32,526 bases of DNA from an uncultured Microbacteriaceae bacterium (GTDB taxonomy: Bacteria > Actinomycetota > Actinomycetes > Actinomycetales > Microbacteriaceae): contig CAIOGW010000025.1 of the NCBI GenBank assembly GCA_903857985.1, forward strand, positions 1 to 32,526, read 5' to 3'. A program made the position numbers and the translations under genes. The notes beneath the pieces are model-generated. The model worked only from the letters and a program-made list of their open reading frames with translations, ran no database searches and was not told where the DNA came from. Shown piece after piece: positions 6,256 to 31,378 of the stretch (position 1 is its first letter; each line of letters opens with the position of its first letter).

Positions 6256-6638
6256 TCTTGCAGGGGCACGAGCGTGCCGAGATCGGCGCGGTTTCCGGAG
6301 GCGTGTACGCGGGCTCCCTCACGAGCATCAGTCCACGAGAGTTCGCCGGTAGCGAGGGCCACCCACGTGGCGGCATCCATCTCGACCACGTTTGCCGGAG
6401 TACCCCGCGTGTGGCGCGGACCCTCGACGCACTGCACGGCGCCGAAGGGTGGAACGCGCACCTCGACGGTGTGGCCGGGATGCGCGTCGGCAAGGATCTG
6501 GAGCAAGTAACGCACGGCCGTCGCTAGTTGGGGTCTCGATACGCCGAGGTCGTCTGTTACTCGACCGGCGGACACATCTTCGCGCACGGCGGCAACGGCC
6601 GCACGGCCGTCTTCTTCTCGGATGCGCTGGGGAGCCAT
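6249..6638 (-). CDS. Sterol carrier family protein (MDMPI/SCP2-like)
   Basis: VEVRVPPFGAVQCVEGPRHTRGTPANVVEMDAATWVALATGELSW. Confidence 0.8.
   Translation of the reverse strand: MAPQRIREEDGRAAVAAVREDVSAGRVTDDLGVSRPQLATAVRYLLQILADAHPGHTVEVRVPPFGAVQCVEGPRHTRGTPANVVEMDAATWVALATGELSWTDAREGARVHASGNRADLGTLVPLQEW
6532..6571 (+). repeat. REP-like repeat copy A (GGTCTCGATAC...TACTCGACCGGCGG), inside the sterol carrier CDS
   Basis: Ends match the copy at 31343-31378; central hairpin degenerate. Confidence 0.55.
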
Positions 6639-6671
6639 GGCTCCAGTCTGCCGGAGTGCGCCGAGATCCTT

Positions 6672-6709
6672 GGTTTCGATTCGTCGCTGCGCGACTACTC
6701 AACCAGCGG
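6672..6709 (+). repeat. REP-like repeat copy B (GGTTTCGATTCG-TCGC-TGC-GCGA-CTACTCAACCAGCGG)
   Basis: Same end sequences as copy D; internal hairpin TCGC/GCGA. Confidence 0.75.
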
Positions 6710-6753
6710 GGCCGGGCGCGGGGCCCCGTTCGAGCACGCTCTAGGCTTAAGGC

Positions 6754-8022
6754 GTGAAGATTCTCGTGGTGGGCTCGGGTGCGCGCGAGCACGCCATCAT
6801 CCTGTCGCTGCTCAGCGAGACCGAAGACCACGACATCACCTGCACTCCCGGCAACGCCGGCATCGCCCACGACGTGCCCTGCGTGATGGCCGATGCCAAC
6901 GACCCCGAGGCCGTGGCCGCCATGGCGAGCCAGCTCGAGGTTGACCTTGTGGTGATTGGCCCCGAAGCGCCGCTGGTGGCCGGTGTCGCCGATGCTGTGC
7001 GTGACGCGGGCATTGCCGTGTTCGGGCCGGATCAGGCTGCCGCTGCGCTGGAGGGATCGAAGTCTTTTGCCAAGCGCATCATGGATGCCGCCGGAGTTCC
7101 CACCGGCCGCGCTCATCGCGCCAGCACGCTGCTCGAGGCCGAGACAATCCTCGACGACTTTGGTGCCCCGTACGTGGTCAAAGCCGACGGCCTGGCGGCC
7201 GGCAAGGGCGTGATCGTTACGAGCGACCGCGACGCGGCGTTGGCGCACACCATGCACTGGCTCGCCGAGGGTGAGGTTCTGATCGAAGAGTTTCTCGACG
7301 GCGAGGAGGTGTCGCTGTTCGTCTTTGCCGACGGCCACGACGTGCTGCCCCTCACCCCGGCGCAGGACTTCAAGCGCCTCCTCGATGACGACGAAGGTCC
7401 CAACACCGGCGGAATGGGCGCCTACTCGCCACTCCCGTGGCTGGCCACGCAGTTTGGCAGCATCGATGCCTTCACGCGCGAGTGCGTGGAGACCGTGGCG
7501 CTGCCTGTGGTGCGCCAGCTCGAGAGCGAAGGCTCCCCGTTCGTTGGGCTTCTTTATTGCGGGCTCATCGTGACGAGCGCGGGCATCCGCGTGATCGAGT
7601 TCAACGCGCGCTTTGGCGACCCCGAGACGCAGGTTGTGCTGCCCCGAATGGTGACGCCACTCAGCAGAATGCTCTATGCGACTGCTGTGGGCGACCTCGC
7701 GAGTCAGCCCGCCATCGAATTCTCCGACGATGCGGTGATTACGGTCGTACTGGCCAGCGAGAACTACCCGGATATTCCCCTGACCGGTCGTGAGATCAGC
7801 GGGCTCGGCGATGCCTCCTCGGTTCCCGGTGTACACATCACCCACGCGGCCACTGCGCACGACGGCGAGCGCCTCGTGGCCTCAGGTGGTCGGGTGCTCA
7901 GCGTGGTTGCCCGCGGCGATTCTTTTGCCGAGGCGCGCACGCGAGCATATGACGCCATGGGGCGGATTGAGCTGCTGGGTGGCCAGTATCGGCGCGACAT
8001 TGCGGCCAAGGTGGTGGGCTAG
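6754..8022 (+). CDS. purD: Phosphoribosylamine-glycine ligase
   Basis: [15 protein letters not shown]..., [45 protein letters not shown]. Confidence 0.97.
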
Positions 8023-8948
8023 TGGTTTCGACAGGCTCAACCAGCGACAGCACAGGCTCAACCAGCGACAGCGCAGGCTCAGCGGCCAATCTACCTGGGT
8101 GGTCGCACGCCTACTCTGGCAAGGTGCGCGATCTCTATGTGCCTGCCGGCCAGGACCTCGACACTGCTCCACGCATCCTCGTGGTTGCCAGCGACCGGGT
8201 GAGCGCATTCGACCATGTTCTTGAGCCGGGCATCCCCGGTAAGGGCGCGCTGCTCACTCGTCTCAGCACCTGGTGGTTTAGCAAACTCGGTGTCAGTAAT
8301 CACCTGCGCGAGCCCGATTCGAGCACGCCGGAAATTCCCGCGAGTGTTGCGACATCATCGATGCTGGTAGCCAACCTCGATATGTTTCCCGTCGAGGCCG
8401 TGGTGCGGGGTTACCTCACGGGAAGCGGTTGGTTGGAGTACGAGGCAACCCACAGCGTCTGCGGAATAGTGCTGCCGGCCGGCCTCAACGACGGCGACAA
8501 ACTGCCCGAACCCATTTACACGCCAGCGTGGAAGGCTCCCGTCGGTGAGCACGACGAGAACATTTCGTTCGAGCGAACAGTCGAACTCGTTGGCGCCGAC
8601 GACGCTGCCGCCATCCGCGACCTGTCGCTGAAAGTTTTTGCTGCGGCGAGCGCCATCGCGGCCAAGCACGACGTCATTCTGGCGGACACAAAGTTTGAGT
8701 TTGGGCGCGACCGTGAGACGGGCCAGATCTGCCTCGCAGACGAGGTGCTCACGAGCGACTCGTCACGCTATTGGGATGGGCGCGACTACGCCGCGGGCAA
8801 TAGGGGCCTGAGTTTTGACAAGCAGATTGTGCGCGACTGGTTGAGCGCCAACTGGGACAAGCACGGCGCCCCTCCCGCGCTCCCGGCCGAAATCATTGCC
8901 CAAACCGTCGCCCGCTACGAATCCCTCATCGAACGTCTCGTCGAGTAG
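8022..8948 (+). CDS. purC: Phosphoribosylaminoimidazole-succinocarboxamide synthase
   Basis: YSGKVRDLY, LVVASDRVSAFDHVLEPGIPGKGALLT, ADTKFEFGRD. GTG start overlaps the purD stop (TAGTG). Confidence 0.96.
   Translation: MVSTGSTSDSTGSTSDSAGSAANLPGWSHAYSGKVRDLYVPAGQDLDTAPRILVVASDRVSAFDHVLEPGIPGKGALLTRLSTWWFSKLGVSNHLREPDSSTPEIPASVATSSMLVANLDMFPVEAVVRGYLTGSGWLEYEATHSVCGIVLPAGLNDGDKLPEPIYTPAWKAPVGEHDENISFERTVELVGADDAAAIRDLSLKVFAAASAIAAKHDVILADTKFEFGRDRETGQICLADEVLTSDSSRYWDGRDYAAGNRGLSFDKQIVRDWLSANWDKHGAPPALPAEIIAQTVARYESLIERLVE
8024..8085 (+). repeat. REP-like repeat copy C, short form (GGTTTCGACAGGCTCAACCAGCG) with 21-bp tandem expansion, in frame in purC
   Basis: ACAGGCTCAACCAGCGACAGC repeated about 2.6 times, encoding STGSTSD units. 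Confidence 0.8.
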
Positions 8949-9103
8949 CCGGCGCGAGGCACCGAGCCTCAGCGTCCACGCCCGGTCACACCCGCGTAAC
9001 CCCCTGGTCTGTGGATGGCCCGCCTCGCCTAAATAACATACTTCGGCCTGTTAGAGGTTTTCCCCCTAGAGTGAGCACGTTGACGCGAGGAATGGGAGAA
9101 GCT

Positions 9104-9457
9104 ATGCCGAAGATCGAGATTGTTGATAACACCCTCAAGGTTGAGCTCACGGGTGCCGAGAAATTCGCGGCGTTCTCGGGAAACCTCTCTTTTCCGATGA
9201 GTCACGTGAAGAGCGTCGCGGTCGATGAGGCGGCGGTGGATCACCTCGGGCTCCGAGCGCCTGGCGTGCATCTCCCCGGAGTCTTTGCCGCTGGCACTTA
9301 CTATCACGACGGAGATCGCCAGTTTGTTTACTGGCACGAGGGTGACATCGCCGTGGTCATTAACCTCAGCGACGAGAAATACGACCGGCTCATCGTGGGC
9401 GTCTCTGGCACTCGCGCCGACGCCGACGCGCTCGTGGCCCGGATTTCGCCGAGCTAG
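9104..9457 (+). CDS. Conserved hypothetical protein
   Basis: MPKIEIVDNTLKVELTGAEKFAAFSGNLSFPMSHVKSVAVD...; start at 9104 after GGGAGAAGCT. Confidence 0.75.
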   Translation: MPKIEIVDNTLKVELTGAEKFAAFSGNLSFPMSHVKSVAVDEAAVDHLGLRAPGVHLPGVFAAGTYYHDGDRQFVYWHEGDIAVVINLSDEKYDRLIVGVSGTRADADALVARISPS

Positions 9458-9468
9458 GTAACCGCCAA

Positions 9469-9537
9469 GGTTTCGATACGCGCCTTCGGCGCTACTCAAC
9501 CAGCGGGAGCGCGCCTGCGGCGCTACTCAACCAGCGG
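9469..9537 (+). repeat. REP-like repeat copy D: one full hairpin copy plus a second left-truncated copy
   Basis: GGTTTCGATACGCGCC-TTC-GGCGCTACTCAACCAGCGG then GCGCGCC-TGC-GGCGCTACTCAACCAGCGG. Confidence 0.8.
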
Positions 9538-9595
9538 GGCGCTTGGCGACCGATAGAATTGGTGCATCCCACCCCTCGAGACAGTCGGAGCCACA

Positions 9596-9862
9596 ATGCC
9601 CACCATCGTCGTCGAGGTCATGCCCAAAGCCGAACTTCTTGACCCTGCGGGCAAGGCAGTTGCCGGTGCGTTGGCACGACTCGGACACACCGAATTCGCG
9701 AACGTGCGCATTGGAAAGCGGTTCGAGCTCACCGTTGAGGGGCCGATAACCGAGGCCACCCTCGCCGCGGCACGCACCATCGCCGAAGAGATGCTGTCCA
9801 ACCAGGTCATCGAAGACGTCATCAGCGTGCACGAAGCACCAGCATCCGGGGCCAGCGCGTAA
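9596..9862 (+). CDS. purS: Phosphoribosylformylglycinamidine synthase subunit PurS
   Basis: [45 protein letters not shown]; overlaps purQ start. Confidence 0.95.
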
Positions 9863-10554
9863 TGCGCGTCGGCGTCATCACCTTTCCGGGTTCTCTCGAC
9901 GACCGCGATGCCCAGCGTGCTATCCGCTTAGCCGGGGCCGAGCCGGTTGCCCTCTGGCACGGCGAACACGACCTCAAGAAGGTTGATGCCATCGTGCTTC
10001 CCGGCGGGTTTAGCTACGGCGACTACCTGCGCTGCGGTGCCATCGCCAGCCACTCGCCCATCATGGCCGAGGTGGTCGATGCGGCCAACAAGGGAATGCC
10101 CGTGCTCGGCATCTGCAACGGATTCCAGATGCTCGTTGAGGCGCACCTCCTGCCCGGCGGCCTGATCCGCAATGACCACGGGCGCTTCGTGCGCCGCGAC
10201 CAGATGATTCGGGTCGAGAACAATCGCACCGATTGGACCAACAAGTTCGACGAGAGCGAAGAGATTGTGATTCCGCTCAAGAACGGTGAGGGTGGCTACA
10301 TCGCCGATAAGGCCACGCTCGATCGCCTCGAGGGCGACGGGCTCGTGACTTTTCGCTACCTCGGCGTGAACCCAAACGGATCGCTCAACGACATCGCGGG
10401 AATCAGTAACGAACGCGGCAATGTGGTGGGGCTCATGCCACACCCGGAGCACGCGGTGGAGAGAGGGTTCGGGCCCAACACCGCCGACGCCATGCGCTCG
10501 GGCATCGACGGCCTGCGCATCTTCACGAGCATGATTGCGAAGGTACTCGCGTGA
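9862..10554 (+). CDS. purQ: Phosphoribosylformylglycinamidine synthase subunit PurQ
   Basis: [55 protein letters not shown]. Confidence 0.97.
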
Positions 10555-11045
10555 GCGCGCCCGTAACGACGGCATCACCCCGCCGGTTCACGCCCAAGCG
10601 CCTTTACCTGATCCTCGCCATCGCGGAGGCCTGCACCTGGACGCTCCTGATCGCAGGCTTGATTCTGCGAGCGACGTCGGGTATCGATGCCACGTTGTTC
10701 ACCGTGGTTGGCGGTCTGCACGGCTTCGTGTTCCTGTCCTATGGGGCCACCGCGATTCTGGTTGCCATCAACCAGCGCTGGCATCCACTCGTGGCGCTTC
10801 TCGCCGTGGCCACGGCCATCGTGCCCTACGCCACCATCCCCTTCGACGTGGTTCAGTCGCGCCGGGGAGCGCTTAACGGTGACTGGCGGTTGACGGAATC
10901 CGACGACCCTCGCGACAAGAACTGGTTCGACCGCACCGTGCGCTGGTTCCTTAACCGTCCCGGACTTCTCGTGCTGGTCGTCGTTGTCGCCATTGTTCTC
11001 GTTTTCAGTATTTTGCTGCTTGTCGGCCCTCCCGGAGGTCGCTAA
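10551..11045 (+). CDS. DUF3817-type membrane protein
   Basis: [45 protein letters not shown] overlap with purQ stop. Confidence 0.8.
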
Positions 11046-11047
11046 CC

Positions 11048-13339
11048 ATGAGCCGACACGTTGCCGACACCGTGGCCAACGCCGCCGCGACCCCGGAGAA
11101 GGAACAACCGTTCGCCGCACTCGGACTCAAGCCCGACGAGTACGCCAGGATTCGCGAGATTCTGGGTCGTCGCCCCACCTCCGGCGAGCTGGCCATGTAC
11201 TCGGTGATGTGGAGCGAGCACTGCTCGTACAAGTCGTCCAAGATATACCTGCGGCAGTTTGGCCAAAAGGTCACCGACAAAATGCGAGAGCGTCTCATGG
11301 TGGGCATGGGCGAGAACGCCGGCGTGGTGGATATCGGTGAGGGCTGGGCCGTCACCTTCAAGGTGGAGAGCCACAACCACCCCAGCTACATCGAACCGTT
11401 TCAGGGCGCGGCCACCGGTGTGGGCGGAATTGTTCGCGACATCATCTCGATGGGTGCGCGTCCCGTTGCCGTGATGGATCAGTTGCGCTTTGGTGCGATT
11501 GACCACCCCGACACAGCCCGCGTGGTGCACGGCGTGGTGGGCGGTATCAGCTTCTACGGCAACTGCCTCGGTCTGCCCAACATTGGCGGCGAGACAGTCT
11601 TCGACGCGGTGTACCAGGGCAACCCGCTGGTGAACGCGCTGGCCGTGGGTGTTCTTCGGCACGAAGACTTACACCTTGCTAACGCCTCCGGCGTGGGCAA
11701 CAAGGTGGTACTTTTCGGCGCACGCACGGGCGGCGATGGAATTGGAGGCGCATCGATACTGGCGTCCGACTCGTTCGACTCCACCGGGCCCACCAAGCGG
11801 CCCGCCGTTCAGGTGGGCGACCCGTTTGCCGAGAAAGTGCTCATCGAGTGCTGCCTCGAGTTGTACGCCGGCGGACTCGTGGAGGGCATTCAAGACCTCG
11901 GCGCTGCGGGCATCTCGTGTGCAACGAGTGAGCTGGCCAGCAACGGCGATGGCGGCATGTTCGTGGAGCTAGACAACGTGCTGCTGCGCGATCCCACGCT
12001 CACCGCAGAAGAGATCCTCATGTCGGAAAGCCAAGAGCGCATGATGGCAGTGGTCAAGCCCGAGAAGCTAGAAGCTTTTCTGGCCGTGGTGGCCAAGTGG
12101 GACGTGGAGACGAGCGTGCTGGGCGAGGTGACCGACACCGGGCGACTGATCATTCACCACGGTGGCGAAGAGATTGTGAACGTTGACCCTCGCACAGTGG
12201 CCATCGACGGGCCGGTGTACGAGCGGCCGGTTGCCTATCCCGCCTGGATTGATGCCCTGCAGGCCAACTCGGCGAGCGCGCTTCCCCGCGCCACCGAGGG
12301 CGACGAACTTCGCGAGCAGTTTCTCGCGCTCGTGGCCAGCCCCAACCTGGCCGACACGTCGTACATCACCGATCAGTACGACTACTACGTCGGGGGCAAC
12401 ACGGCCCTGGCTTTCCCCGACGATGCGGGCATGATCCGCGTCGACGAAGAATCCGGCCTTGGGTTTGCGATCGCCACCGACGCTAACGGCCGCTACTGCC
12501 AGCTCGACCCCTACGAGGGTGCGCGCCTGGCACTCGCGGAGGCCTTCCGCAACGTGTCGATGACGGGTGCCGTGCCAGCCGCCGTCACCGACTGTCTCAA
12601 CTTTGGCAGCCCCGAGAATCCCGAGGTGATGTGGCAGTTCATGCGGTCCGTTGAGGGCTTGGGCGACGCGTGCATGGAGCTGGAGATTCCCGTCACGGGC
12701 GGCAACGTTTCGTTCTACAACCAGACCGGCGACCAGCCCATTCACCCCACTCCGGTGGTGGGCGTGCTCGGCATCATCGACGACGTGGAGCGTCGAGTGC
12801 CCAGCGCCTGGCAAGACGAGGGCAACAACATCTACCTGCTGGGTGTCACGCGCACCGAACTCGATGGATCCGCCTGGGCCGGGACGATTCATGGGCACCT
12901 CGGTGGCCGACCTCCGCAGTTATCTCTCAATGACGAGAAAGCGCTTGCCCATCTCGTGCAGGGCGCCGCACTCGAGGGGCTGCTAATGAGCGCCCATGAC
13001 CTCTCTGAGGGCGGCCTGGCGCAGGCGCTGGCCGAGAGCGTGGCGCGCTTCGGAATCGGCGCCCGCGTGTGGCTCAACGACATCATTGAGCGCGACGGCA
13101 TGGACCTCACCTCGGCGCTGTTCTCGGAGTCGACCGCCCGCGCCATCGTCACGGTGCCGCGCGAAGACGACGTCAAATTCGTGGGCCTGTGCGAAGCACG
13201 TGGCTATCCCGTTCTCCGCATTGGTGTCACCGACGGTCGTGACTACGAGGCCACACTGCACGTGCAGGACGTCTTCACCGTGCCGGTGGCCGAGATCCGC
13301 GAACGCAGCAATGCCACCCTCCCGCACTACTTCGCGTAA
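11048..13339 (+). CDS. purL: Phosphoribosylformylglycinamidine synthase subunit PurL
   Basis: [71 protein letters not shown]. Confidence 0.98.
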
Positions 13340-13374
13340 TTTACAGTCGTTCGGCAAGTGCGAGAAGAAGAGGG

Positions 13375-13695
13375 CTAGTCGCGGCCCGAAGCCAGTCGCT
13401 CATGGTGATGAATAACTTCGTCAACCACAAAGTTGAACCACTTCTCAGCAAAGGCAGGATCGAGGTCAGCCTGTTCGGCCAGGGCTCGGAGACGCGCCAC
13501 CTGTCGCTTTTCGCGGTCGGGGTCTGATGCTGGCATGTCATTTTCAGCCTTCAGAACGCCCACAGCCTGGGTGAACTTGAACCGCTCCGCCAGTAGGTGA
13601 ATCAATGCGGCATCGATATTGTCAATGCTCTGTCGCAGGGAAGCCAAGCGAGCTAGCGCCTCGTCACCGAGGCCATCGTGCGCATCAGCAGCCAT
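13375..13695 (-). CDS. Chorismate mutase (AroQ class)
   Basis: LRQSIDNIDAALIHLLAERFKFTQAVGVLKAENDMPASDPDREKRQ. Confidence 0.88.
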   Translation of the reverse strand: MAADAHDGLGDEALARLASLRQSIDNIDAALIHLLAERFKFTQAVGVLKAENDMPASDPDREKRQVARLRALAEQADLDPAFAEKWFNFVVDEVIHHHERLASGRD

Positions 13696-13789
13696 GTAAC
13701 GACTTTAGCGCAGGCCCACACGGCGAAAGAGGAGTGATTTTCTCTGCTCTTCCGTTGCGCACCCTCGGGTGGATGCTGACGCCGTCGGA

Positions 13790-14491
13790 CTAGTCGTCAT
13801 CACTAACGTTGCCGCGTCCGTTGTCGCCGCGTCCGCCATCACCGCGTCCGCCATCGCCACGTCCGCCATCACCACGTCCGCCATCACCACGTCCGCCATC
13901 GCCACGTCCGCCATCGCCACGTCCGCCATCACCGCGTCCGCCGTCGCCGCGTCCGCCATTACCGCCGCCGGATCCCGCGTCATCTGACGACTCGGGGTCA
14001 TCAGGATCCACAGAATCGACCGAGTCTTCGGTGTTTTCCACAGGGGCCCCCGTGCGTGCCGGCACGTTTCCGATACCCCCGTCAGGTGTGCCGGGCTCGC
14101 CCTCAGTTCCGTCATCGCCCACAGTGCCGTCGTCTTCGACGACTTCTTCCGAGAGGGGTGATTGGCTCCATGCATCTGACTCCTGGTCGCGGTGGTCCTC
14201 GAAGACGTCAGCGAGGCCCGAAAGCATGGCCGGATTCTCGAGGAGGCTCGCTACCTGCGCGCTGATGGCCGGATCAATCACGCCGGCCTCAATAGCGTCG
14301 GCGAGCTGCCCCACCAACTCCTGCGAGAGGTCGGCGGAAAGCTCGTCGAGGCCAAGGTTTTGCAGTGTCGCGCCAACGAGGGCTTGCGCAATGGCATCGT
14401 TCGTGGCCCCACTGGCCGGATTGGCCACAAAGGCCACGGGAACACTCAAGCCCAGTCCGAGTCCGATGACGATCAAGATTTTGCGGATCAT
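13790..14491 (-). CDS. Secreted hypothetical protein with acidic linker and C-terminal (GGRGD)n tail
   Basis: Signal peptide MIRKILIVIGLGLGLSVPVAFVANPASGA; tail is nine GGRGD units; ATGA overlap with the upstream lipoprotein gene. Confidence 0.75.
   Translation of the reverse strand: MIRKILIVIGLGLGLSVPVAFVANPASGATNDAIAQALVGATLQNLGLDELSADLSQELVGQLADAIEAGVIDPAISAQVASLLENPAMLSGLADVFEDHRDQESDAWSQSPLSEEVVEDDGTVGDDGTEGEPGTPDGGIGNVPARTGAPVENTEDSVDSVDPDDPESSDDAGSGGGNGGRGDGGRGDGGRGDGGRGDGGRGDGGRGDGGRGDGGRGDGGRGDNGRGNVSDDD
13811..13960. repeat. 15-bp tandem repeat, about 10 units (consensus RCCRCGTCCGCCATC on + strand)
   Basis: Unit-by-unit reading; encodes GGRGD on the minus strand. Confidence 0.9.
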
Positions 14492-14802
14492 TTGCTTGCC
14501 ACCGCCACGTCCGTCTCGGCACGCTGGCGCCAGAGATTGAGGGTATTGGCCAGAATTGCGTCTCTAGCGGCGTTCACCTCGGCTGAGGAAACAATGCTCT
14601 TTTCGACGGCAGCTTGTATGTCTCCGGACGACAGGATGACAGCGGCAAGAAGGACACCTTCGGCAGATACATTGTCGGGCAACTCATCGGTAAGGATGTT
14701 GCCTGATTCAACGCCAGTGGGCAACGAGCACGCAGCGAGTGTTCCGAGTGCAATGGCACCCGCGGCAAAGGCCACGAGAGCTCCGGTCACTATCTTGCGC
14801 AT
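14488..14802 (-). CDS. Putative lipoprotein of unknown function
   Basis: MRKIVTGALVAFAAGAIALGTLAACSLPTG with lipobox LAAC. Confidence 0.75.
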   Translation of the reverse strand: MRKIVTGALVAFAAGAIALGTLAACSLPTGVESGNILTDELPDNVSAEGVLLAAVILSSGDIQAAVEKSIVSSAEVNAARDAILANTLNLWRQRAETDVAVASK

Positions 14803-14846
14803 CCCTCCAGCGTAAGGGAATGGCGCGTTGGCGGTCTGTTTGCGAT

Positions 14847-14860
14847 GTCAAAGGTTTGAC
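14847..14860. promoter_or_regulatory. Inverted repeat GTCAAA-GG-TTTGAC upstream of the lipoprotein gene
   Basis: Perfect 6-bp arms in the gap between the purA 3' end and the lipoprotein start. Confidence 0.4.
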
Positions 14861-14906
14861 CAAGGATTTCGGCTCGCGCACCGGTGTGGCGCGCCGTGAG
14901 GTCGAC

Positions 14907-16190
14907 CTAGACCAGATCGTGACGCACCACAATGGCATCGCGGGCCGGACCGACGCCAATGGCCGAGAAGCGGGCGCCGCTCATCTTTTCGAGCGCAAGA
15001 ACGTACTTCTGTGCGTTGGCTGGCAGATCGTCGAACGTGCGCACGCCCGTGATGTCTTCGGTCCAGCCAGAGAAGTTTTCGTAAATGGGTGTGGCGTGGT
15101 GAAAATCGCTCTGGTTCACCGGAACCTCGTCGACGCGCGTGCCGTCGACGTCGTAGGCCACACAGACAGGAATCTCGTCGAGGCCCGTAAGCACATCCAG
15201 TTTGGTCAGCACAAAATCGGTCACGCCATTGATGCGCGTGGTGTAGCGCGCGATGGGAGCGTCGTACCAGCCACAGCGGCGTGGCCGACCGGTGGTGGTG
15301 CCAAACTCAAAACCTTTGGAACGAAGGTATTCGCCCGAGTCATCGAAGAGCTCCGTGGGGAATGGCCCCGAGCCGACGCGCGTCGTGTACGCCTTGACCA
15401 CGGCAATCACACGGTCGACGCGGGTAGGGCCGATTCCCGAACCCGTGAGGGCACCTCCGCTAGTGGCGTTGGAGGACGTGACAAAGGGATACGTGCCGTG
15501 ATCTACGTCGAGCATGGTGGCCTGGCCACCCTCAAAGAGCACCGTCTTATTTGCGTCGAGCGCGCTGTTGAGCTCGAGCGACGTGTCACACACCATGGGG
15601 CGCAGACGATCGGCATATGACATGAGTTCGGTTATCACCTCGTCGGCTGTGATGGCGCGGCGGTTGTAGATCTTGACGAGCAAGTGATTCTTAATCTCGA
15701 GGGCGCTCTCCACCTTCTGGCGCAGAATTCCCTCATCAAAGATGTCTTGCACGCGGATGCCCACGCGGTTGATCTTGTCGGCGTAGGTAGGGCCGATTCC
15801 CCGGCCGGTGGTGCCAATCTGACGCTTGCCCAAGAATCGCTCGGTCACTTTGTCGAGTGTGCGGTGGTAGCTGGTGATGATGTGGGCGTTGGCGCTCACG
15901 CGAAGGCGTGAGACGTCGATGCCGCGCGACGATAGCGCCGAAAGCTCGCCAAAAAGCACCTCGAGATCAATCACTACGCCATTGGAAATCACGGGTGTCA
16001 CACCGGGCGTGAGGATTCCCGATGGCAGCAGGTGGAGCGCGTACTTCTCGTTTCCTACCACCACCGTGTGGCCGGCGTTATTGCCGCCGTTGAACTTGAC
16101 GACGTAGTCGATGCGACTGGCCAGGAGATCGGTGGCCTTGCCCTTACCCTCGTCGCCCCACTGGGCGCCCACGAGAACGATTGCTGGCAT
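14907..16190 (-). CDS. purA: Adenylosuccinate synthetase
   Basis: [51 protein letters not shown]. Start set at M 16190. Confidence 0.97.
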
Positions 16191-21307: not shown

Positions 21308-21319
21308 GCTCAACCCACC

Positions 21320-22285: not shown

Positions 22286-22318
22286 CTCCCTGCCGCAACT
22301 GGCGGCATCACGCGTCGG

Positions 22319-22867
22319 CTAGGCGAGTCCCAGGTCGGAGAGGCCAATCGCCGAAAGGTAGGGATATCCCGCAGACTCGATGCGTTCTTTGGCGCCGGTG
22401 TCGCGATCAACGACCACGGCGACCGCCGCCACGGTGGCCCCCGCACGCTCGAGTGCCTCAATCGCGGCAAGCGGGGATCCGCCCGTTGTCGAGGTGTCTT
22501 CCAAAACAATCACGCGCTTGCCGGCCAGTTCAGGACCCTCGACCTGTCTGCCGCGGCCGTGGTCTTTGGCCTGTTTGCGCACCACGAAGGCGTCGTAGGC
22601 GACACCGCGCGCCACCCCCTGATGCATGACCGCAGCAGCAATCGGGTCAGCGCCCATGGTGAGGCCACCCACCGCGGCGATGTCGGGAATGTCCGCAATC
22701 AGGTCGAGCATCACCTGACCAATGAGCGGTGCCACCACGTGGTCAAGACTCACGCGGCGAAGATCGACGTAGTACGTTGCTTTCTGTCCGCTGGTAAGCG
22801 TGAAGTCACCGTGAAAAACGGCGTCGCGCGTGATGTGTTCGATGAGTTCACTGCGTGCGTCAGACAT
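22319..22867 (-). CDS. pyrE: Orotate phosphoribosyltransferase
   Basis: FTLTSGQKATYYVDLRRVSLD, AAVGGLTMGADPIAAAV, RVIVLEDTSTTGGSPLAAIEAL. Confidence 0.95.
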   Translation of the reverse strand: MSDARSELIEHITRDAVFHGDFTLTSGQKATYYVDLRRVSLDHVVAPLIGQVMLDLIADIPDIAAVGGLTMGADPIAAAVMHQGVARGVAYDAFVVRKQAKDHGRGRQVEGPELAGKRVIVLEDTSTTGGSPLAAIEALERAGATVAAVAVVVDRDTGAKERIESAGYPYLSAIGLSDLGLA

Positions 22868-22915
22868 GAGCCCAGACTACCCGCGCTACCCGCACACGGG
22901 CAGTAGCGTTGAGGC

Positions 22916-23749
22916 ATGCGCATCGCCACCTGGAACGTGAACTCGATTCGCGCCCGCGTGGATCGCGTTGTCGATTACCTGGTGCGAGAGAACGTCGACG
23001 TGCTGTGCATGCAGGAGACCAAGTGCCGTGAGCACCAGTTTCCGCTCGAAGCGTTCGAGGCGGCCGGCTACGAGGTCGCTCTGCACGGACTCAACCAGTG
23101 GAACGGGGTGGCCATCGCCTCCCGGCTGCCCATCGAAGACGTGACCATCGGGTTCGATGCGATGCCCGGATTTGGCCCCCTCGACGACGCGGGTATCCCT
23201 CCGCTCGAAGCGCGCGCTCTGGGCGCCACCGTTGAGGGTCTGCGCCTGTGGAGCCTCTACGTACCCAACGGCCGCGAGCTCGACAACGCTCACTACCCCT
23301 ACAAACTCGAATGGTTGGGCGGGCTAGCGCGCGACATGAGTGCGTGGATGGCTGCAAACCCAGATGAACCGATTGCCCTGTTGGGCGACTGGAACGTGGC
23401 GCCGTTTGACACCGACGTGTGGGACGTCGACCAGTTTGTGGGCTCCACGCACGTTTCACAGCCCGAGCGTGACGCGTTCTTTGCTTTCGAGAAGGCAGGA
23501 TTCGCCGACGTTGTTCGCGAGCGCGTTCCCGAGGGCTACACGTATTGGGACTACAAGCAACTGCGCTTTCCTCGTAACGAGGGCATGCGCATCGACTTTA
23601 TTCTCGCGAACGCGCCCTTTGCCGAACTCGTGAGTTCAGCGCACATCGCGCGAGACGAGCGCAAGGGCGACGGACCGAGTGATCACGTACCGGTTGTGGT
23701 GGATCTGGACTATGGTGACACTGACGATGACCGTCCGATGATTTTCTAG
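22916..23749 (+). CDS. xth: Exodeoxyribonuclease III
   Basis: MRIATWNVNSIRARVDRVVDYLVRENVDVLCMQETKCRE, LLGDWNVAP, GMRIDFILAN, SDHVPVVVDL. Confidence 0.95.
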   Translation: MRIATWNVNSIRARVDRVVDYLVRENVDVLCMQETKCREHQFPLEAFEAAGYEVALHGLNQWNGVAIASRLPIEDVTIGFDAMPGFGPLDDAGIPPLEARALGATVEGLRLWSLYVPNGRELDNAHYPYKLEWLGGLARDMSAWMAANPDEPIALLGDWNVAPFDTDVWDVDQFVGSTHVSQPERDAFFAFEKAGFADVVRERVPEGYTYWDYKQLRFPRNEGMRIDFILANAPFAELVSSAHIARDERKGDGPSDHVPVVVDLDYGDTDDDRPMIF

Positions 23750-23757
23750 GAGAAGCC

Positions 23758-24165
23758 ATGACCAGCCCCGCGTCCACACCAGAGAACACCCCCGCGGCAA
23801 CGACCACGGCCACAGCAACGTCGTCTGTGATAAAGCGCAGGGGAGCTTCCCGTAGCCTCGACATCACGCTGACCATCGTGTTCTTAGTTCTCAATGCCCT
23901 CATGGTGGCGGCGCTCTTTGTGCCCGCACTGTTCTTGGCCATGGCGTCAGCCGGTTGCATGGGCTCGTGCAACTTAGACGTCGTTCAGGCCGGGTTCAAT
24001 ATCGCTCTCTTTGGGCCGAGCGTGGCATTCATCGTGAACCTCGTGCTGAGCATCGTCTTCCTCGTGAAAAAGCGCACGACATGGCTGCTCAGCTTGCTGG
24101 TGGGCGTGGGTGGATTTCTGGTCTTCCTGCTCGGTGTTGCCCTGGTCTTTCTGCCCGCCAGCTAG
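23758..24165 (+). CDS. Hypothetical multi-TM membrane protein
   Basis: Pro/Thr/Ala-rich N-terminus then three hydrophobic segments. Confidence 0.7.
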   Translation: MTSPASTPENTPAATTTATATSSVIKRRGASRSLDITLTIVFLVLNALMVAALFVPALFLAMASAGCMGSCNLDVVQAGFNIALFGPSVAFIVNLVLSIVFLVKKRTTWLLSLLVGVGGFLVFLLGVALVFLPAS

Positions 24166-24204
24166 AGCGCACGCTCGAGCGCTGCCTTTTCGACCAAACG
24201 CGGT

Positions 24205-25035
24205 TTAGCGGCCGCGGAAGTTGTCCATCGACGAGTACACGTGAAAGACCTTGTCGGCAATCACGTCGAACGCGCGTTGCGGCAGCACGCCCTTCAAGAA
24301 CTTCGACAGGTGCACGGTCCAGGGCAGCATCAGCATGGGTTTGCCTTGGCGCATGGCACGCCACACGCGAGACACCACGTATTCCGGAGTCATCAGTGGC
24401 GTCATGAGCGGCCCGCGAGCGCCGTCAAACATGCCCGTCGAAATGTAGGTGGGCGCCACCGTCGTCACTTTCACGTTGCCGTAGCCCTCGCGCGTGAGCT
24501 CCAGCCGAACCGAGTCGCCCCAGCCGATCAGTGCCCACTTGCTGGCAGCGTAAACACTCATCTTGGGGTTGGAGATGAGTCCGGCGGCCGACGCAATATT
24601 CACAATTCGGCACTCGCGACCCGACGCCAGCATTCCGGGCAAAAATTCGTGCGTGGTCACCATGGGCGCCACGGTGTTGACCATCATGATGGCCTCGGTG
24701 TGGTCTGCGTTGTCGTGCTCCCAGAACACACCACCGCGAACGATGCCAGCATTGTTGATGAGCACGTCCACGCCACCGTGTGTGGCGATGACGGACGCGG
24801 CAGCCTTCTCAATGGCCTCGCGCTTCGAGAGGTTAACGACCATGCCGTCGACGATGACTCCGGCCGGTGCGCTGGCCGTGATCTCACGCGCCGTTTGCTC
24901 GAGGGCCTTCTTGTTCACGTCCCAGAGCACCACAACGGCTGCGCCTTCGGCCGCCGCCCGCTCGGCATAAAGCCGGCCCATACCCATGGCGGCGCCGGTA
25001 ATGACGAATCGGCTACCGGCGACCTCACAGGCCAT
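24205..25035 (-). CDS. SDR family oxidoreductase
   Basis: FVITGAAMGMGRLYAERAAAEGAAVV, LINNAGIV, YAASKWALIGW. Confidence 0.92.
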   Translation of the reverse strand: MACEVAGSRFVITGAAMGMGRLYAERAAAEGAAVVVLWDVNKKALEQTAREITASAPAGVIVDGMVVNLSKREAIEKAAASVIATHGGVDVLINNAGIVRGGVFWEHDNADHTEAIMMVNTVAPMVTTHEFLPGMLASGRECRIVNIASAAGLISNPKMSVYAASKWALIGWGDSVRLELTREGYGNVKVTTVAPTYISTGMFDGARGPLMTPLMTPEYVVSRVWRAMRQGKPMLMLPWTVHLSKFLKGVLPQRAFDVIADKVFHVYSSMDNFRGR

Positions 25036-25044
25036 AAGAAGTGA

Positions 25045-25164
25045 TTACTTCTCGCACTGGCAGCGGTCTGCCTCGGCGACACCCTCGAGTGCTACTTCGA
25101 TGTGTTCGCCACAGCCGTCCCAAGTGGGCTTGCCGCAGTTTTCACACTCAATGCGCTTGCACAT
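25045..25164 (-). CDS. Small Cys-rich protein (39 aa)
   Basis: MCKRIECENCGKPTWDGCGEHIEVALEGVAEADRCQCEK; start 25164 within the longer listed ORF, AAAGGAA ribosome-binding site upstream. Confidence 0.8.
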   Translation of the reverse strand: MCKRIECENCGKPTWDGCGEHIEVALEGVAEADRCQCEK

Positions 25165-25184
25165 GTTGTGTTCCTTTCGTGGGG

Positions 25185-26855
25185 TTAGGGGAAGGCGAGC
25201 ACTCGTTGTGTTCGCTCGCGAGATTCGGTACCGGCGAGCCAAGTTAGGCATCCACCGTCAAGGTTATGGGCATTCTTGCCGTTTTGGCGCAGGAGTTGAG
25301 TGGCGATGTGTCCGCGTTGGCCAACGCGACAGTGCACGATTACCTCGCCGTCGGGAACTTCGTCTAACCGCGAGCGAAGATCATCAACGGGGATGTGCAG
25401 CGAACCGGGAATAGCGCGTACATCGTTCTCGGGATCAGTGCGTACATCGAGCACGGTAGCGCCGGCGGCCACGCGAGCTTCGAGTTCGTGCCACTGCACA
25501 CTCGGCGTGCGCTGGTGCCAAATGTTGTTGGCAACGTAACCGAGCTGGTTGACGGCGTCCTTGGCAGATCCAAACTGAGGCGCGTAAGCGAGTTCCAGAT
25601 TCATCAGGTCGTCGACGGTGAGGCCGGCATAAATGGCGGTGGCCAACACATCGATGCGCTTGTCGGCACCGTCGGTGCCCGTGGCCTGACCGCCCAGGAT
25701 CTTTCCCGTCTCGGGATCGAAAATGACCTTGAGGGCCAGCGTTGCCGAGCCCGGGTAGTAACCGGCATGAGAACCCGGGTGCGCGTGCGCCACACGGTAG
25801 TCGAGGCCGGCAAGTCGAGCACCTTTTTGGGAAAGCCCCGTGATGGCCGCCACCATTCCGAAGGCACCGATGATACCTGTGCCCTGGCTGTCGCGCTCGG
25901 GGCTCTCCACCCCGGCGATCACGTCGGCCACGGCGCGGCCGTGCCTATTGGCGAGGTTGGCCAGCCAGATCATCTGATCAGCGCCCGTGAGCGCACTGTG
26001 CTTCTGTGCCGCGTCGCCCACGGCAAAAATGTGGGGGTCGCTCGTGCGGTGGTTCTCGTCGACCCAGATTCCGCCGGCCGTGCCCATGCGCAGACCGGAC
26101 TGTGCGACAAACTCGGCATCCGCCGTGACCCCGATGGCCGAGATCACGAGATCGGCGCTCAAGAGCTGACCATTGTCGAGCACGACTTCGAATTCCGTGA
26201 TCTCAACTGCCGTGCGACCGAGTGCGAGCGTGATGCCGTTGCTCTCGAGTGTGGCCTGCAGCGGTTCAATCATCTCGGGGTCGAACTGGGGAAGAATTGT
26301 CGACGCCTGCTGGACGAGCGTGACCTGCATACCCCGGTGTCGAAGGTTTTCGGCCACCTCGACACCAATAAACCCTCCCCCGAGAATCACGGCGGTGCCG
26401 GCCTCGGTGCCGGCGTCAGTAGCATCGACGGCATCCTTGATGCGCACGGCGTCGGGAACATCGCGCAGCGACAGGGCGCGTTCGTTGCCGGGAATAGCGA
26501 GCTGTCGAGGGCTTGCTCCGGGCGAGAGAATAAGTGAGTCGTAGGAATCGGTGAATTCCTGGCCCGTGAGCATGTTCGTTCCCGTCACGGTCTGTGTTGC
26601 CGGGTCAATGGCCACAATGCGCGAATTGACGCGAACATCCAGCCGGAACCGGCGCCATAGCGAATCCGGGGTTTGCAGCAGCAGGCTCTCTTCCGCGCCA
26701 ATCACATCGCCGATGAAGTAGGGCAGTCCGCAGTTGGCAAAAGACACGTGCGGGCCCTGCTCATACACCGTGATCTCGGCGTGCTCGTCGAGTCGACGCA
26801 AGCGCGTGGCTGCCGACATCCCTCCGGCAACTCCGCCGATAATGATCGTTTTCAC
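25185..26855 (-). CDS. CoA-disulfide reductase-type FAD oxidoreductase with C-terminal rhodanese domain
   Basis: GTG start VKTIIIGGVAGGMSAATRLRR; active-site SFANCGLPYFIG; rhodanese VIVHCRVGQRGHIATQLL. Confidence 0.9.
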   Translation of the reverse strand: MKTIIIGGVAGGMSAATRLRRLDEHAEITVYEQGPHVSFANCGLPYFIGDVIGAEESLLLQTPDSLWRRFRLDVRVNSRIVAIDPATQTVTGTNMLTGQEFTDSYDSLILSPGASPRQLAIPGNERALSLRDVPDAVRIKDAVDATDAGTEAGTAVILGGGFIGVEVAENLRHRGMQVTLVQQASTILPQFDPEMIEPLQATLESNGITLALGRTAVEITEFEVVLDNGQLLSADLVISAIGVTADAEFVAQSGLRMGTAGGIWVDENHRTSDPHIFAVGDAAQKHSALTGADQMIWLANLANRHGRAVADVIAGVESPERDSQGTGIIGAFGMVAAITGLSQKGARLAGLDYRVAHAHPGSHAGYYPGSATLALKVIFDPETGKILGGQATGTDGADKRIDVLATAIYAGLTVDDLMNLELAYAPQFGSAKDAVNQLGYVANNIWHQRTPSVQWHELEARVAAGATVLDVRTDPENDVRAIPGSLHIPVDDLRSRLDEVPDGEVIVHCRVGQRGHIATQLLRQNGKNAHNLDGGCLTWLAGTESRERTQRVLAFP

Positions 26856-26902
26856 GAGAAGCTCCTGCCCTCTTTTGTTGCTCAAACCGAAACGAAGACC
26901 AA

Positions 26903-27160
26903 CTAGGCCATCGACATGAAGGCCTTCTCGAGCGCGACCCGATTGACGTCACCTTCGGGGCCCGTGCCACAGTGGCTCATGCCGGTTGCGATGATGCTGA
27001 ACCCTGCGCGATCAAGTGCGGTGCTGGCAGCGGCGAGCTGCGTGAGGATTTCGGTGCAATCTCGGCCCTCGTCGATCATGCGCACGAGGCCACCAATCTG
27101 TCCCTGCACGCGCACCAAACGGTTGCGAGCATTTTTGAGTTCGTCTGCGGGGAGTTTCAT
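26903..27160 (-). CDS. CsoR/FrmR/CstR (DUF156) family metal- or persulfide-sensing regulator
   Basis: NRLVRVQGQIGGLVRMIDEGRDCTEILTQLAAASTALDRAGFSIIATGMSHC. Cys35 and Cys64 present; the position four before Cys64 is Gly rather than CsoR His. Confidence 0.9.
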   Translation of the reverse strand: MKLPADELKNARNRLVRVQGQIGGLVRMIDEGRDCTEILTQLAAASTALDRAGFSIIATGMSHCGTGPEGDVNRVALEKAFMSMA

Positions 27161-27174
27161 GATTCACCTTTCAT

Positions 27175-27205
27175 GGGTATAGAGTTACTATACCCTAGGG
27201 GGTAT
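27175..27205. promoter_or_regulatory. CsoR/CstR-type operator: overlapping half-sites GGGTAT/ATACCC/GGGTAT
   Basis: GGGTATAG-AGTTA-CTATACCC (27175-27195) overlapping ATACCCTAGGGGGTAT (27190-27205) in the 61-bp divergent gap. Confidence 0.75.
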
Positions 27206-27221
27206 CGAAAGGAAAATTGAA

Positions 27222-27611
27222 ATGAAGCGCATCATTACCGCAATTGCTATCGTGGCAACCCTTGGCGCGGGCGGACTTGCCCTCAGTGCCTGCTCATCGA
27301 CTGGAGAGAATGCACCCATGGCCGCCGTTGACTTCACCGCCGACACCATCGTGATCGACGTCCGCACACCCGAAGAGTTCGACACCGGCCACCTTGCCGG
27401 AGCACTCAATATCAATTGGCAGGGCGCCGAGTTCATGCAGGCCGTTGACGTGCTCGACAAGTCCGCGAACTACGTGATCTACTGTCGTTCAGGAAATCGC
27501 GCCGGGCAGGCCATCGACATGATGAAGAGCATGGGATTCACCAATGTAACGAATCTCGGAAGCGTTGACGAGGCCGCAAAGGCAACCGGCATCGCCGTCG
27601 TCACCGATTAG
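27222..27611 (+). CDS. Rhodanese-domain lipoprotein
   Basis: Lipobox LSAC in MKRIITAIAIVATLGAGGLALSACSS; IDVRTPEEFDTGHLAGALNI; active site YCRSGNRAGQA. Confidence 0.9.
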   Translation: MKRIITAIAIVATLGAGGLALSACSSTGENAPMAAVDFTADTIVIDVRTPEEFDTGHLAGALNINWQGAEFMQAVDVLDKSANYVIYCRSGNRAGQAIDMMKSMGFTNVTNLGSVDEAAKATGIAVVTD

Positions 27612-27635
27612 TGGTTTCCTCCAGCGATTGAGGGA

Positions 27636-29828
27636 TTAGTCGTTTAACAGCTCTGCCGTCAGCGCATCGTCCGCCCCCGGATCGAGTCGAGGGGCAGGCC
27701 CCGTTGACGTAACCGTGAGGCCGTCATCGGCAAGGTCGACCGTCACGAGGTCGCCGTCGCGCACCGTGCCGGCGAGCAGCGCTGTGGCCAACTTGTCATC
27801 AATCTCGTGCTGCATGAGGCGACGCAAGGGCCTAGCGCCATAAATGGGGTCGTAGCCGCGTTCCGCCAGCCACGTGCGGGCTGCGGGCGTCACCGCCAGC
27901 TCGAGGCGACGATCGGAGAGCCGTACCTGCAGGCGGTCGATGTACAGTTCCACGATTGACCCGAGGTCAGCCTGGCTGAGCGACTGAAACACCACGATGT
28001 CGTCGAGACGATTGACGAACTCCGGTTTGAAGGCTTGGCGCACCAGGTTTTGCACGGCCTGCTCCTTGTCGGCATCCGACAGTTCCGGGTCCACCAAGTA
28101 CTGACTTCCCAGGTTTGACGTGAGAATCATGATCACGTTGCGGAAATCGACCGTACGGCCTTGGCCGTCGGTGAGTCGACCGTCGTCGAGCACCTGAAGC
28201 AGGAGGTCGAAAACTTCGGGATGAGCCTTCTCCACTTCGTCAAACAACACAACGGAGTAGGGGCGGCGGCGAACGGCCTCGGTGAGCTGACCGCCCTGCT
28301 CGTAGCCCACGTATCCGGGAGGGGCGCCCACAAGACGCGAGACGGCAAACTTTTCGCCGTACTCGCTCATGTCGATGCGAATCATGGCCTTTTCGTCGTC
28401 GAACAATACCTCGGCGAGCGCCTTGGCCAACTCGGTCTTGCCCACGCCCGTGGGGCCGAGAAACAAAAAAGATCCGGTGGGGCGATCGGGATCGCTGATG
28501 CCCGCGCGCGAACGACGCACCGACTCAGCGACGGCGCGCACGGCCTTCTTCTGGCCAATGAGACGCCTGCCGATCTCGGCTTCAAGGTTGAGGAGCTTCT
28601 CAGTCTGGCCCTGCGTGAGTCGGTCAACCGGAATGCCCGTCCAGGCAGCAATCACTGCCGCAATTTCGTCGGCTGTGACCTGGTCGCGCACCATCATGGG
28701 CGTGTCCGACTCGGCCTTTTCGGCCGCAGCGACCTCGCTCTCAAGTTGCGGAATCTCGCCGTAGAGCAGGCGTGACGCCGCCTCGAGGTTGCCCTCGCGC
28801 TGCGCTCGGTCGGCCTGAATGCGCGCCGCATCGAGTCGGCCCTTGAGGTCACCCACACGGTTGAGCGCGGCCCGCTCGGCCTGCCAGCGGTCATCGAGCT
28901 CGGCAAGTTTGATTTCACGCTCGGCGAGGTCTTCGCGCAGTTTAGCCAGTCGCTGCTTGGAGGCGTCGTCTTTCTCCTTCTTGAGGGCGAGCTCCTCAAG
29001 CTTGAGGCGATCAACGCCACGACGCAGCTCGTCGATCTCAACGGGCGCCGAGTCGATCTCCATGCGCAGGCGGCTCGCAGCCTCATCGATGAGGTCGATG
29101 GCCTTGTCGGGCAGCTGTCGAGACGTGATGTACCGATTGCTCAGGGCGGCCGCGGCCACGAGAGCGTTGTCGGCGATGGCCACCTTGTGGTGGGCCTCGT
29201 AGCGCTCCTTGAGCCCGCGCAGAATGGCGATGGTGTCTTCAACCGTTGGCTCACCCACGAACACCTGCTGAAAGCGGCGCTCCAACGCGCCGTCCTTCTC
29301 GATGAACTGCCGATACTCGTCGAGCGTGGTGGCGCCAATGAGGCGCAGTTCGCCGCGCGCGAGCATGGGCTTGAGCATGTTGGCAGCCGCTACCGATCCT
29401 TCACCGCCGCCGGCACCCATGAGGGTGTGCAGTTCGTCGATGAACGTGATGATCTGTCCGTCGGACGCATCAATCTCGGCAAGGACGGCCTTGAGCCGTT
29501 CCTCAAACTCGCCGCGGAACTTTGCTCCGGCAATGAGCGCGCCGATGTCGAGGGCAACGAGCTGCTTGCCCTTCAGGCTCTCGGCCACGTCGCCGGCCAC
29601 GATGCGCTGGGCGAGGCCCTCAACCACAGCGGTCTTGCCCACGCCCGGTTCGCCAATCAGCACCGGGTTGTTCTTGGTGCGGCGCGTGAGAACCTGGCTG
29701 ACGCGTCGGATCTCGGCGTCACGTCCTATGACGGGGTCGAGCTTGCCGTTTTTCGCACGCTCGGTGAGATTGATGCCGAACTGCTCGAGAGCGCTCTTTG
29801 CCTCTTCTTGTGGGGCTTGCGGGGTCAT
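27636..29828 (-). CDS. clpB: ATP-dependent chaperone ClpB lacking the N-terminal Clp_N domain
   Basis: Two AAA modules ([16 protein letters not shown]), M-domain coiled coil; protein begins at the linker before the first AAA module; start overlaps hspR stop. Confidence 0.95.
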
Positions 29829-30259
29829 TGTTGTTCTCCCGATTCGATGCGGCGGAGCGGATTCCAGCGAACCACCTCGGTGGCACGGCGAACCCGCTGG
29901 CCGTTGCGCAACGTTTGCACTTCGCCCGCGGATCCGGCGGCAAAGACCCGTCGACCGGGTTGAGCGAGTAGCGAATCGGCGAGGGCTGTCTCAAGCTTGC
30001 GCACCCGCTCCCGCAGGGTGACCACGTCGTTTTCAAGTTCGAGGACGCGCTTGATTCCCTCAAGGCTCACACCCTCCGCACCGAGTCGGGCGACCTCGCG
30101 CAGTTGCACCACGTCTCGCATGGAGTAACGGCGCGACTGGCCCGCCGTGCGCTTGGGTTGCACGAGCCCCAGGCGGTCATACTGACGCAGTGTTTGGGGG
30201 TGCATGGCGGCAAGTTCGGCCGCCATCGAAATGGTAAAAATCGGCTGGTCTTCGTCCAC
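29825..30259 (-). CDS. hspR: MerR-family heat shock repressor HspR
   Basis: [49 protein letters not shown]; between dnaJ and clpB. Confidence 0.93.
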
Positions 30260-30268
30260 GTCGGCCCC

Positions 30269-31243
30269 CTATCGCCGTCCGCGCTGAAGTATCTCGGCCC
30301 GGGGGTTGTCTTTCGGCGCCTTGGCCGCAAACTCTTCGAGAGCCTTCGTTGCCTCAGCATCGAGGTGTGTGGGTACGGCCACCATGACCTCGGCAAGCAG
30401 ATCACCGTGACCCTTGGCGGTCTTTACCCCGCGCCCCTTGACGCGGAGGATTCGGCCGCTCGGGGTTCCCGGAGCCACCTTGAGCTTGACCGTTTCGCCC
30501 TCGACCGTGGGTACCTCGATGGTGGCACCCAACACTGCCTCGGTGAACGTCACGGGCACAACGAGGCGAACGTTGAGTCCGTCGCGCTCGAATACGGGAT
30601 GCTTGCTCACGGTGACGGTGAGCACGACGTCTCCAGGCTCTCCACCGTCTGGGCTGGCGTGACCCTTGGCACGAATGCGAACCTTTTGCCCGTCGGCCAC
30701 GCCCGCAGGAATCTTGACCTTGACGCTGTTGCCCGAGGGCAGTTGCAGGGTCATGGTGTCGCCGTGCAGGGCCTCAAAGAAGTCCACCACCACGGTCGAA
30801 ACGATGTCTTGTCCTTTACTCGGACCACCCCAGCCGCGGAATCCGCCGGAGGATCGGCCAAAGCTGCCGTTGCCGAACATGCCGCCGAGAATGTCTTCGA
30901 ATCCTGCGCCCTGCGGGAATCCGCCGCCGCCACCGCCACCGTAAGGACTGCCGCGGAACGCATCGTCGAAGCCGCGCCCCTGACCTCCTGCGGTAAAACG
31001 CGCGCCCGACCCCATAGCTCGAATCTGGTCGTACTCGGCGCGCTGCGCGGGGTCCGACAGAACCGAGTGAGCCTCGGTGATTCCTTTGAACGTGGCCTCG
31101 GCCTTGGCGTCACCCGGGTTGCTGTCGGGGTGGTGCTTGCGCGCGAGCTTGCGATAGACCTTTTTCAGTTCTTCTGGCGAGACGTCCTTCGAGACGCCGA
31201 GAACCTTGTAGAAATCTTTGTCGAGCCAATCTTGACTAGCCAT
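30269..31243 (-). CDS. dnaJ: DnaJ C-terminal domain-containing chaperone lacking the Cys-rich zinc finger
   Basis: J domain [37 protein letters not shown] (HPD); Gly-rich linker; no CxxCxGxG repeats. Confidence 0.93.
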
Positions 31244-31275
31244 CAGCGCCTCCTTTCGTTGTGTGAAGTTGAGTC

Positions 31276-31335
31276 TCGTTGATTGAGCTTGTATTTCGTT
31301 GATTGAGCTTGTATTTCGTTGATTGAGCCTGTCGA
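31276..31335. repeat. Three 20-bp tandem units (TCGTTGATTGAGCYTGTMKW), ending in an inverted short-form REP-like copy (E1, 31321-31339)
   Basis: TCGTTGATTGAGCTTGTATT twice then TCGTTGATTGAGCCTGTCGA; the last is the reverse complement of the copy C core. Confidence 0.85.
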
Positions 31336-31342
31336 AATCACG

Positions 31343-31378
31343 GGTCTCGATACGGGCTACGCCCTACTCGACCAGCGG
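31343..31378 (+). repeat. REP-like repeat copy E2 (GGTCTCGATACGGGC-TAC-GCCCTACTCGACCAGCGG)
   Basis: Hairpin GGGC/GCCC with outer GGTC...GACC; directly abuts the grpE stop codon. Confidence 0.8.

Follow-up and report, generated by a model that had tools for sequence, protein, structure and literature searches.

Short palindromes dispersed in many copies through bacterial genomes are best known as repetitive extragenic palindromic sequences (REPs), which, as the paired REPINs, are non-autonomous elements proposed to move as single-stranded DNA hairpins with the help of a Y1 tyrosine transposase, the REP-associated tyrosine transposase or RAYT (PMC3116915, PMC2817692). Their spread has so far been argued from RAYT-bearing proteobacteria. 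The GTAG class of REPs is the closest described counterpart of the element considered here, and the Rickettsia palindromic elements RPE-4/6 have been recognized as CGTC REPs (PMC3733652). The present analysis concerns a palindrome found as six copies (A, B, C, D, E1 and E2) in a 32,526-nucleotide stretch of DNA from an uncultured Microbacteriaceae bacterium (contig CAIOGW010000025.1; 'the window' hereafter). Its fold is conserved by compensatory changes at orthologous sites and between genera, it is dispersed, retained at the same sites in different species and multiplied locally, and it occurs in bacteria of at least three phyla.

Fold, copy number and host range of the element

The element is a unit of approximately 35-43 bp that exists in two forms, a long one built as GGTTTCGATACG-stem-loop-stem-TACTCAACC and a short one, GGTTTCGACAGGCTCAACC, in agreement with an initial annotation of the window, which had described long and short versions with common ends. 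On the complement of the strand used there (the minus strand) it reads CGNY-GGTTGA-GNAG-stem-GNA-stem-CGNN-TCGAAACC, with GTAG, GGAG or GCAG before the stem. An NRCG extension lies to the right of the arms, with C at +3 in 192/198, 69/69 and 23/25 copies of three groups, and short complementary GNT (left)/ANC sequences lie outside the arms, most clearly in Treponema and Chloroflexota; position 2 of this outer extension covaries in Chloroflexota (z = 6.3). No longer unit was detected around the element in the high-copy genomes inspected, homology ending with NRCG and GNT/ANC. Perfect inverted flanks of 10-12 bp border a few of the Anaerolinea copies (L303, L318, L330), and at L303, L318, L329 and L330 (Anaerolinea and other Chloroflexota) copies tip a longer perfect inverted flank of variable sequence, e.g. 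gggccaaacgtg...cacgtttggccc; long inverted-repeat flanks were discarded as a general feature. On contig C100 of genome G000 (L022, L023) a 43-bp element has the widespread motif CTGAGCTTGTCGAAG nested between short-form ends (GGTTTCGACAGGCC...TGCTGAGCTTGTCGAAGCATCAACC).

The compensatory changes that had been noticed in the arms and core stems of the window copies were confirmed on larger samples, with covariation far above that of shuffled alignments. Among 30 copies of equal length, 98.6% of the cells are paired and 7 pairs are altered on both sides, and no shuffle of these copies equals them in paired cells, in pairs changed on both sides or in covariation score. A separate comparison gave 97.6% paired cells against 79.2% in shuffles and a covariation score of 0.466 against 0.108, with 0/500 shuffles as high. 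The inner pair 9-28, which includes the second base of the minus-strand GNAG motif, is T-A in 20, G-C in 11 and C-G in 5 of 36 copies drawn from more genera, and unpaired in none. The terminal arms, scored without requiring complementarity, yielded 64 complementary non-consensus pairs (GGTC/GACC, 34; GATT/AATC, 21; GGCT/AGCC, 7; CGTT/AACG, 2), whereas shuffles gave 7.9 on average and 16 at most, so that arm compensation holds genome-wide. A double compensatory change between species is seen in copy A of genome G100, where CCGAC/GTCGG has become CCCAC/GTGGG.

The view that the window copies belong to a dispersed REP-like family was likewise strengthened by the home genome, a metagenome-assembled genome (MAG) that is 84% complete and comprises 212 contigs totalling 1.61 Mb: the pattern GGTTTCGA-N3-30-TCRACC has 54 matches there (0 for a reversed-pattern control), and 58 long copies were recovered with a covariance model (E <= 0.001). 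The long form is present in 6/6 genomes of the genus, with 14 to 43 exact matches each, and 64/100 sampled genomes of the family have a match, several of them 20 to approximately 200 and many only one or two, in line with the earlier guess that related genomes might hold similar motifs; the count in one family member is 189 to 198, varying with the pattern used. Exact long forms were found among Leifsonia, Rhodoglobus, Agreia, Schumannella, Cryobacterium and Homoserinibacter, and also in Gordonia, Aeromicrobium, Anaerolineae and other Chloroflexota, and Treponema. The number rises to 359 copies at most in one genus of another actinobacterial family and to 368 in one Treponema bryantii genome. 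A literature search by sequence words gave no description of the element family, and none for Microbacteriaceae. In genome G046 (2.0 Mb; contigs C1, C2, C3 and C6; loci L082-L088 and L095), unlike other genomes, approximately 13/14 arrays of the element lie on the same contig strand, a bias that may reflect replication or gene direction.

Orthologous sites in five congeners include retained, expanded and lacking copies. Comparison of 372 ortholog pairs gave 274 with an intact copy, 26 with a partial one and 72 with none, a distribution in which presence is overestimated because the contigs were picked for holding copies. Identity at orthologous sites is 96% in the stems and 80% in the loops, values on which the search pattern imposes nothing, and falls to 58% and 48% in the adjacent 5' 20-nt and 3' 16-nt flanks, respectively.

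Window copies, their sites and their genes

All six copies were recovered where the initial annotation had placed them, and its arm pairings (GGTT/AACC in B, C and D; GGTC/GACC in A and E2; GATT/AATC in E1) proved right. It is now apparent that one or two 5'-truncated tandem copies follow each of C, D and E1. Copy A (long form, 6532-6566, plus strand), the core of which is partly decayed (CCGAGGTCGTCTG), lies antisense within a coding gene (6249-6638, minus strand) for an SCP-like protein (PF17844). Copy B (long form, 6672-6704, plus strand; stem GTCGC/GCGAC, loop TGC) is present in five species, with an orthologue in four congeners; it is found as a tandem of three in G100 and is absent in G101. 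The short-form copy C (8024-8042, plus strand) lies in frame within the coding sequence for the PurC N-terminus and is followed by a 21-nt 5'-truncated unit in the same frame (8043-8063, plus strand) and by a third, degraded unit up to approximately 8084. It occurs in G000, G012 and G094 and is missing in G100, G102 and G101, the purC sites without it keeping the start GTGGTTTCGG or its like. Copy D (long form, 9469-9501, plus strand), between an ORF ending at 9457 and purS, has a 5'-truncated tandem copy made of AGCGGGA, core and TACTCAACC (9502-9532, plus strand), and was found in G000 and G102 and, as three units, in G100. Between grpE and dnaJ, copy E1 (short form, 31321-31339, minus strand) is accompanied by two 5'-truncated tandem units of 20 nt with the same AATC right arm (31281-31320, minus strand), and copy E2 (long form, 31343-31373, plus strand) lies next to it. 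At one orthologous site elsewhere (L205 3561 compared with G094), the palindrome has opposite orientations in G094 and G012.

The arrays are markedly asymmetric. Copies that retain only the right end number 98, against 22 with only the left end, and 80/98 of the former lie directly 3' of another copy; arrays grow head to tail, as 5'-truncated copies. The simplest reading would be repeated tandem duplication, with breaks inside the hairpin and just past the right end.

Placement was surveyed in six congeners (1.09 Mb), which hold 229 matches. Of these, 139 are intergenic and 73 lie within called genes, where a few matches are due to chance. Convergent gaps, which make up 13% of gap bases, hold 55/139 intergenic copies (40%), and divergent gaps, with 30% of gap bases, hold 11/139 (8%); 3' gene ends are enriched for copies. 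The reading frame of the copies inside genes is fixed. Long copies in sense orientation encode GFDT...TTQPA, with one exception in a doubtful 50-codon ORF; short ones encode VSTGST or ISTSSI, and antisense copies encode RLSSAEGAYRNP. The antisense GRVxxx frame is used by GGTC/GACC copies, copy A included, in which GGT-TGA, with its stop, became GGT-CGA. In-frame copies occur in genes of essential function; host genes include those for IleRS, RecG, DnaX, LeuC, BCCP, GatA, an Fpg/Nei-type glycosylase and PurC, and in IleRS the insertion is found immediately past the stretch that aligns to solved structures.

Two other repeats were noted in the window, both in minus-strand orientation and within ORFs that have no Pfam match, namely a 15-bp tandem repeat (TCGCCACGTCCGCCA, approximately 9 units) at 13812-13965 in ORF 13790-14491 and a 33-bp tandem repeat (2.2 units) at 673-745 in ORF 545-1588.

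Proposed mechanism of dispersal and its alternatives

The loops point to the strand that is likely to fold. In DNA, d(C-GNA-G) mini-hairpins are extraordinarily stable. Mini-hairpins are treated, for example, in PMC4686876. The triloops of the element are closed by C-G in 162/167 cases, and GNA accounts for 66% of these 167 triloops when the minus strand is read but for 3.6% when the plus strand is; at orthologous sites the middle base of the loop is the most variable, with 66 changes as compared with 33 and 21 for the other two. Copies between co-directional genes show no orientation bias (34 versus 39). From a GNA tip that is fixed to one strand of the element and from the lack of a bias with respect to transcription, it is therefore proposed that the folded molecule would be a single DNA strand rather than RNA.

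With these data, the elements can be described as REP-like non-autonomous palindromes that are dispersed as a single-stranded DNA hairpin by a trans-acting enzyme, with arrays formed by slippage, a description to which we would give an even chance. The minus strand, as single-stranded DNA, would fold into one hairpin, and a trans-acting, single-strand-specific enzyme would recognize the GNAG hairpin and copy or paste it, by analogy with TnpA-REP acting on GTAG REPs. In Actinobacteria and Treponema this enzyme would probably be something other than a recognizable Y1_Tnp. Local arrays may stem from the polymerase slipping after having copied the minus-strand hairpin. Copies would then persist where they do little harm, at 3' gene ends and in few promoter regions, and also where translation of the insert yields a soluble peptide (GFDT...TTQPA). 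A broader statement, that this is a mobile REP-like palindrome of Actinobacteria, Chloroflexota and Spirochaetota, served by a non-Y1 enzyme on the single-stranded hairpin and deposited as in-frame peptide cassettes in essential proteins, is put forward more tentatively.

Several observations weigh against dispersal of a single-stranded hairpin by a trans-acting enzyme. No mobilizer was identified in the searches described below. The orthologous sites yielded no recent insertion flanked by clean target duplications, and the best candidate for a gain (L243 10907, in G102 only) has approximately 30 extra bases; the GTGGTTTCGG start kept at 'empty' purC sites also fits loss of the copy. Because arm patterns served to find both the copies and the contigs, the conservation of arms at orthologous sites is overestimated. 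The GNA bias could be in part a founder effect. Pairing in the stems could be maintained by any of stepwise selection, template switching and conversion between copies, and these three causes of covariation are incompletely separated. As regards miniature inverted-repeat transposable elements (MITEs) of DDE transposons, which have terminal inverted repeats and a target-site duplication, the arms of the element are short inverted repeats, and visual inspection of empty sites showed no duplication.

The nearest alternative is a classical REP/RAYT system, in which a Y1 tyrosine transposase acts in trans and has been lost, is very divergent or is encoded in the missing 16% of the MAG. A GTAG/GGAG-like motif 5' of the hairpin, REP-like copy numbers and the gene context all agree with it, and the initial annotation had accordingly suggested an unlinked RAYT as the mover. 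That suggestion was not borne out by searches with PF01797 (Y1_Tnp). The home genome has no match, an absence that is weak evidence by itself because the MAG is incomplete; the pattern across complete relatives is stronger, since PF01797 is missing from 99/100 family genomes (90/100 of the genomes are >= 90% complete), the sole positive one having no match to the element pattern, and from the near-complete high-copy actinobacterial genomes tested, in which the copy number reaches 359. In Treponema, four genomes with 21 to 368 copies also gave no match; in a fifth, with the fewest copies (11), the match is only a 66-bp fragment. A control search detected Y1 in E. coli. These results do not support a RAYT as the mobilizer in actinobacterial hosts and copy-rich Treponema. 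A survey of Y1 proteins found only IS200-type TnpA in Actinobacteridae (PMC6006769). Y1_Tnp genes are present in 8/8 Chloroflexota genomes tested, all of which hold the exact element, and therefore a past donor with a RAYT is possible; however, the element lies within 1.5 kb of just 2/29 Chloroflexota Y1 loci, about the chance level. Overall, a classical REP/RAYT system is considered unlikely.

We judge equally unlikely a purely mutational origin, according to which template switching or ectopic conversion keeps the stems paired, so that covariation would be no sign of selection on the fold. Homogenization of inverted repeats by template switching is known (PMC8604942). A hand tally of distinct stem changes at orthologous sites gave approximately 8 double and 8 single events, and most of the doubles are transversions, for which the intermediate would have to be a non-wobble mismatch; this hints at change in one step. 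However, template switching should invert loops as well, and reverse-complement swaps account for 0/92 loop changes at orthologous sites, with loops that are strongly one-sided (GNA). Conversion of the whole core is difficult to reconcile with L205/L226, where a rare TTT loop is retained while one stem pair flips. Such an origin would also leave unexplained the dispersal of the element and the fixed 9-28 pair.

Finally, an RNA-level element (terminator, attenuator or mRNA 3' stabilizer) under selection at gene ends would account for the enrichment at 3' gene ends and in convergent gaps and for the conservation of sites between species, but is improbable in view of the absence of an orientation preference between co-directional genes and of a T-tract, of the copies within operons (grpE-dnaJ, before purS) and within ORFs, and of the link of GNA to the strand of the element independently of transcription. 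An intrinsic terminator was discarded because the copies show no orientation preference and the 3' flank is NRCG, without a T-run, and a known RNA family was discarded for lack of any Rfam match in the window.

Comparison with known palindromic elements

Among coding repeats, PARCELs (PMC2996958) share with the element tandem repetition in coding sequence and dyad symmetry; theirs is a 25-residue amphipathic repeat, a peptide unrelated to that of the element. With REPIN/RAYT systems the element shares non-autonomous dispersed palindromes, but no Y1_Tnp is found in the actinobacterial hosts or copy-rich Treponema studied here, and its pairs are not exclusively the typical inverted REPIN dimers. 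Unlike the case of RAYT-mobilized REPs, Y1 genes were found only in Chloroflexota hosts, where the element does not flank them above chance. Hosts that carry the element by the hundreds and in which no Y1 gene is detectable offer a clean test of the need of REP-like palindromes for RAYTs.

The Rickettsia palindromic elements are similar in being in-frame palindromes of essential genes with a fixed frame and no known transposase, and appear to differ in sequence; no CGTC end is seen in the element, and its copies are mostly intergenic. Its in-frame copies in IleRS, RecG, DnaX, LeuC, BCCP and PurC show that a selfish palindrome can regularly give rise to insertions in proteins outside Rickettsia.

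The family is best classed as REP-like of the GTAG/GNAG type. Similarity is most extensive with GTAG REPs (PMC3733652), which are also 20-40 bp palindromes in many dispersed copies (here 54-58 per 1.6 Mb and up to 368), with a GTAG-type tetranucleotide of variable second base 5' of the stem, compensatory stem subfamilies and short loops, and which are also mostly intergenic, favouring gaps of the convergent and unidirectional kinds close to 3' ends, with some copies in ORFs of repair, replication and tRNA-synthetase genes. The differences are that the motif here lies within the outer stem (GGTT/AACC), with its second base paired to column 9 and no unpaired terminal tag, that a short form exists, that the units of its arrays are 5'-truncated and follow one another head to tail, whereas head-to-tail dimers are said to be rare (PMC3733652), and that the hosts include Actinobacteria, outside the phyla listed for GTAG REPs (PMC3733652) and devoid of RAYT. 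The element was compared with GTAG REPs by description rather than by consensus, and a match to the Chloroflexi family GTAG-23 is possible. Although two defining features of GTAG REPs, the unpaired terminal tag and the RAYT, are thus not shared, the anatomy and gene context of the element are like those of a GTAG REP, and its coding copies are like the palindromic elements of Rickettsia.

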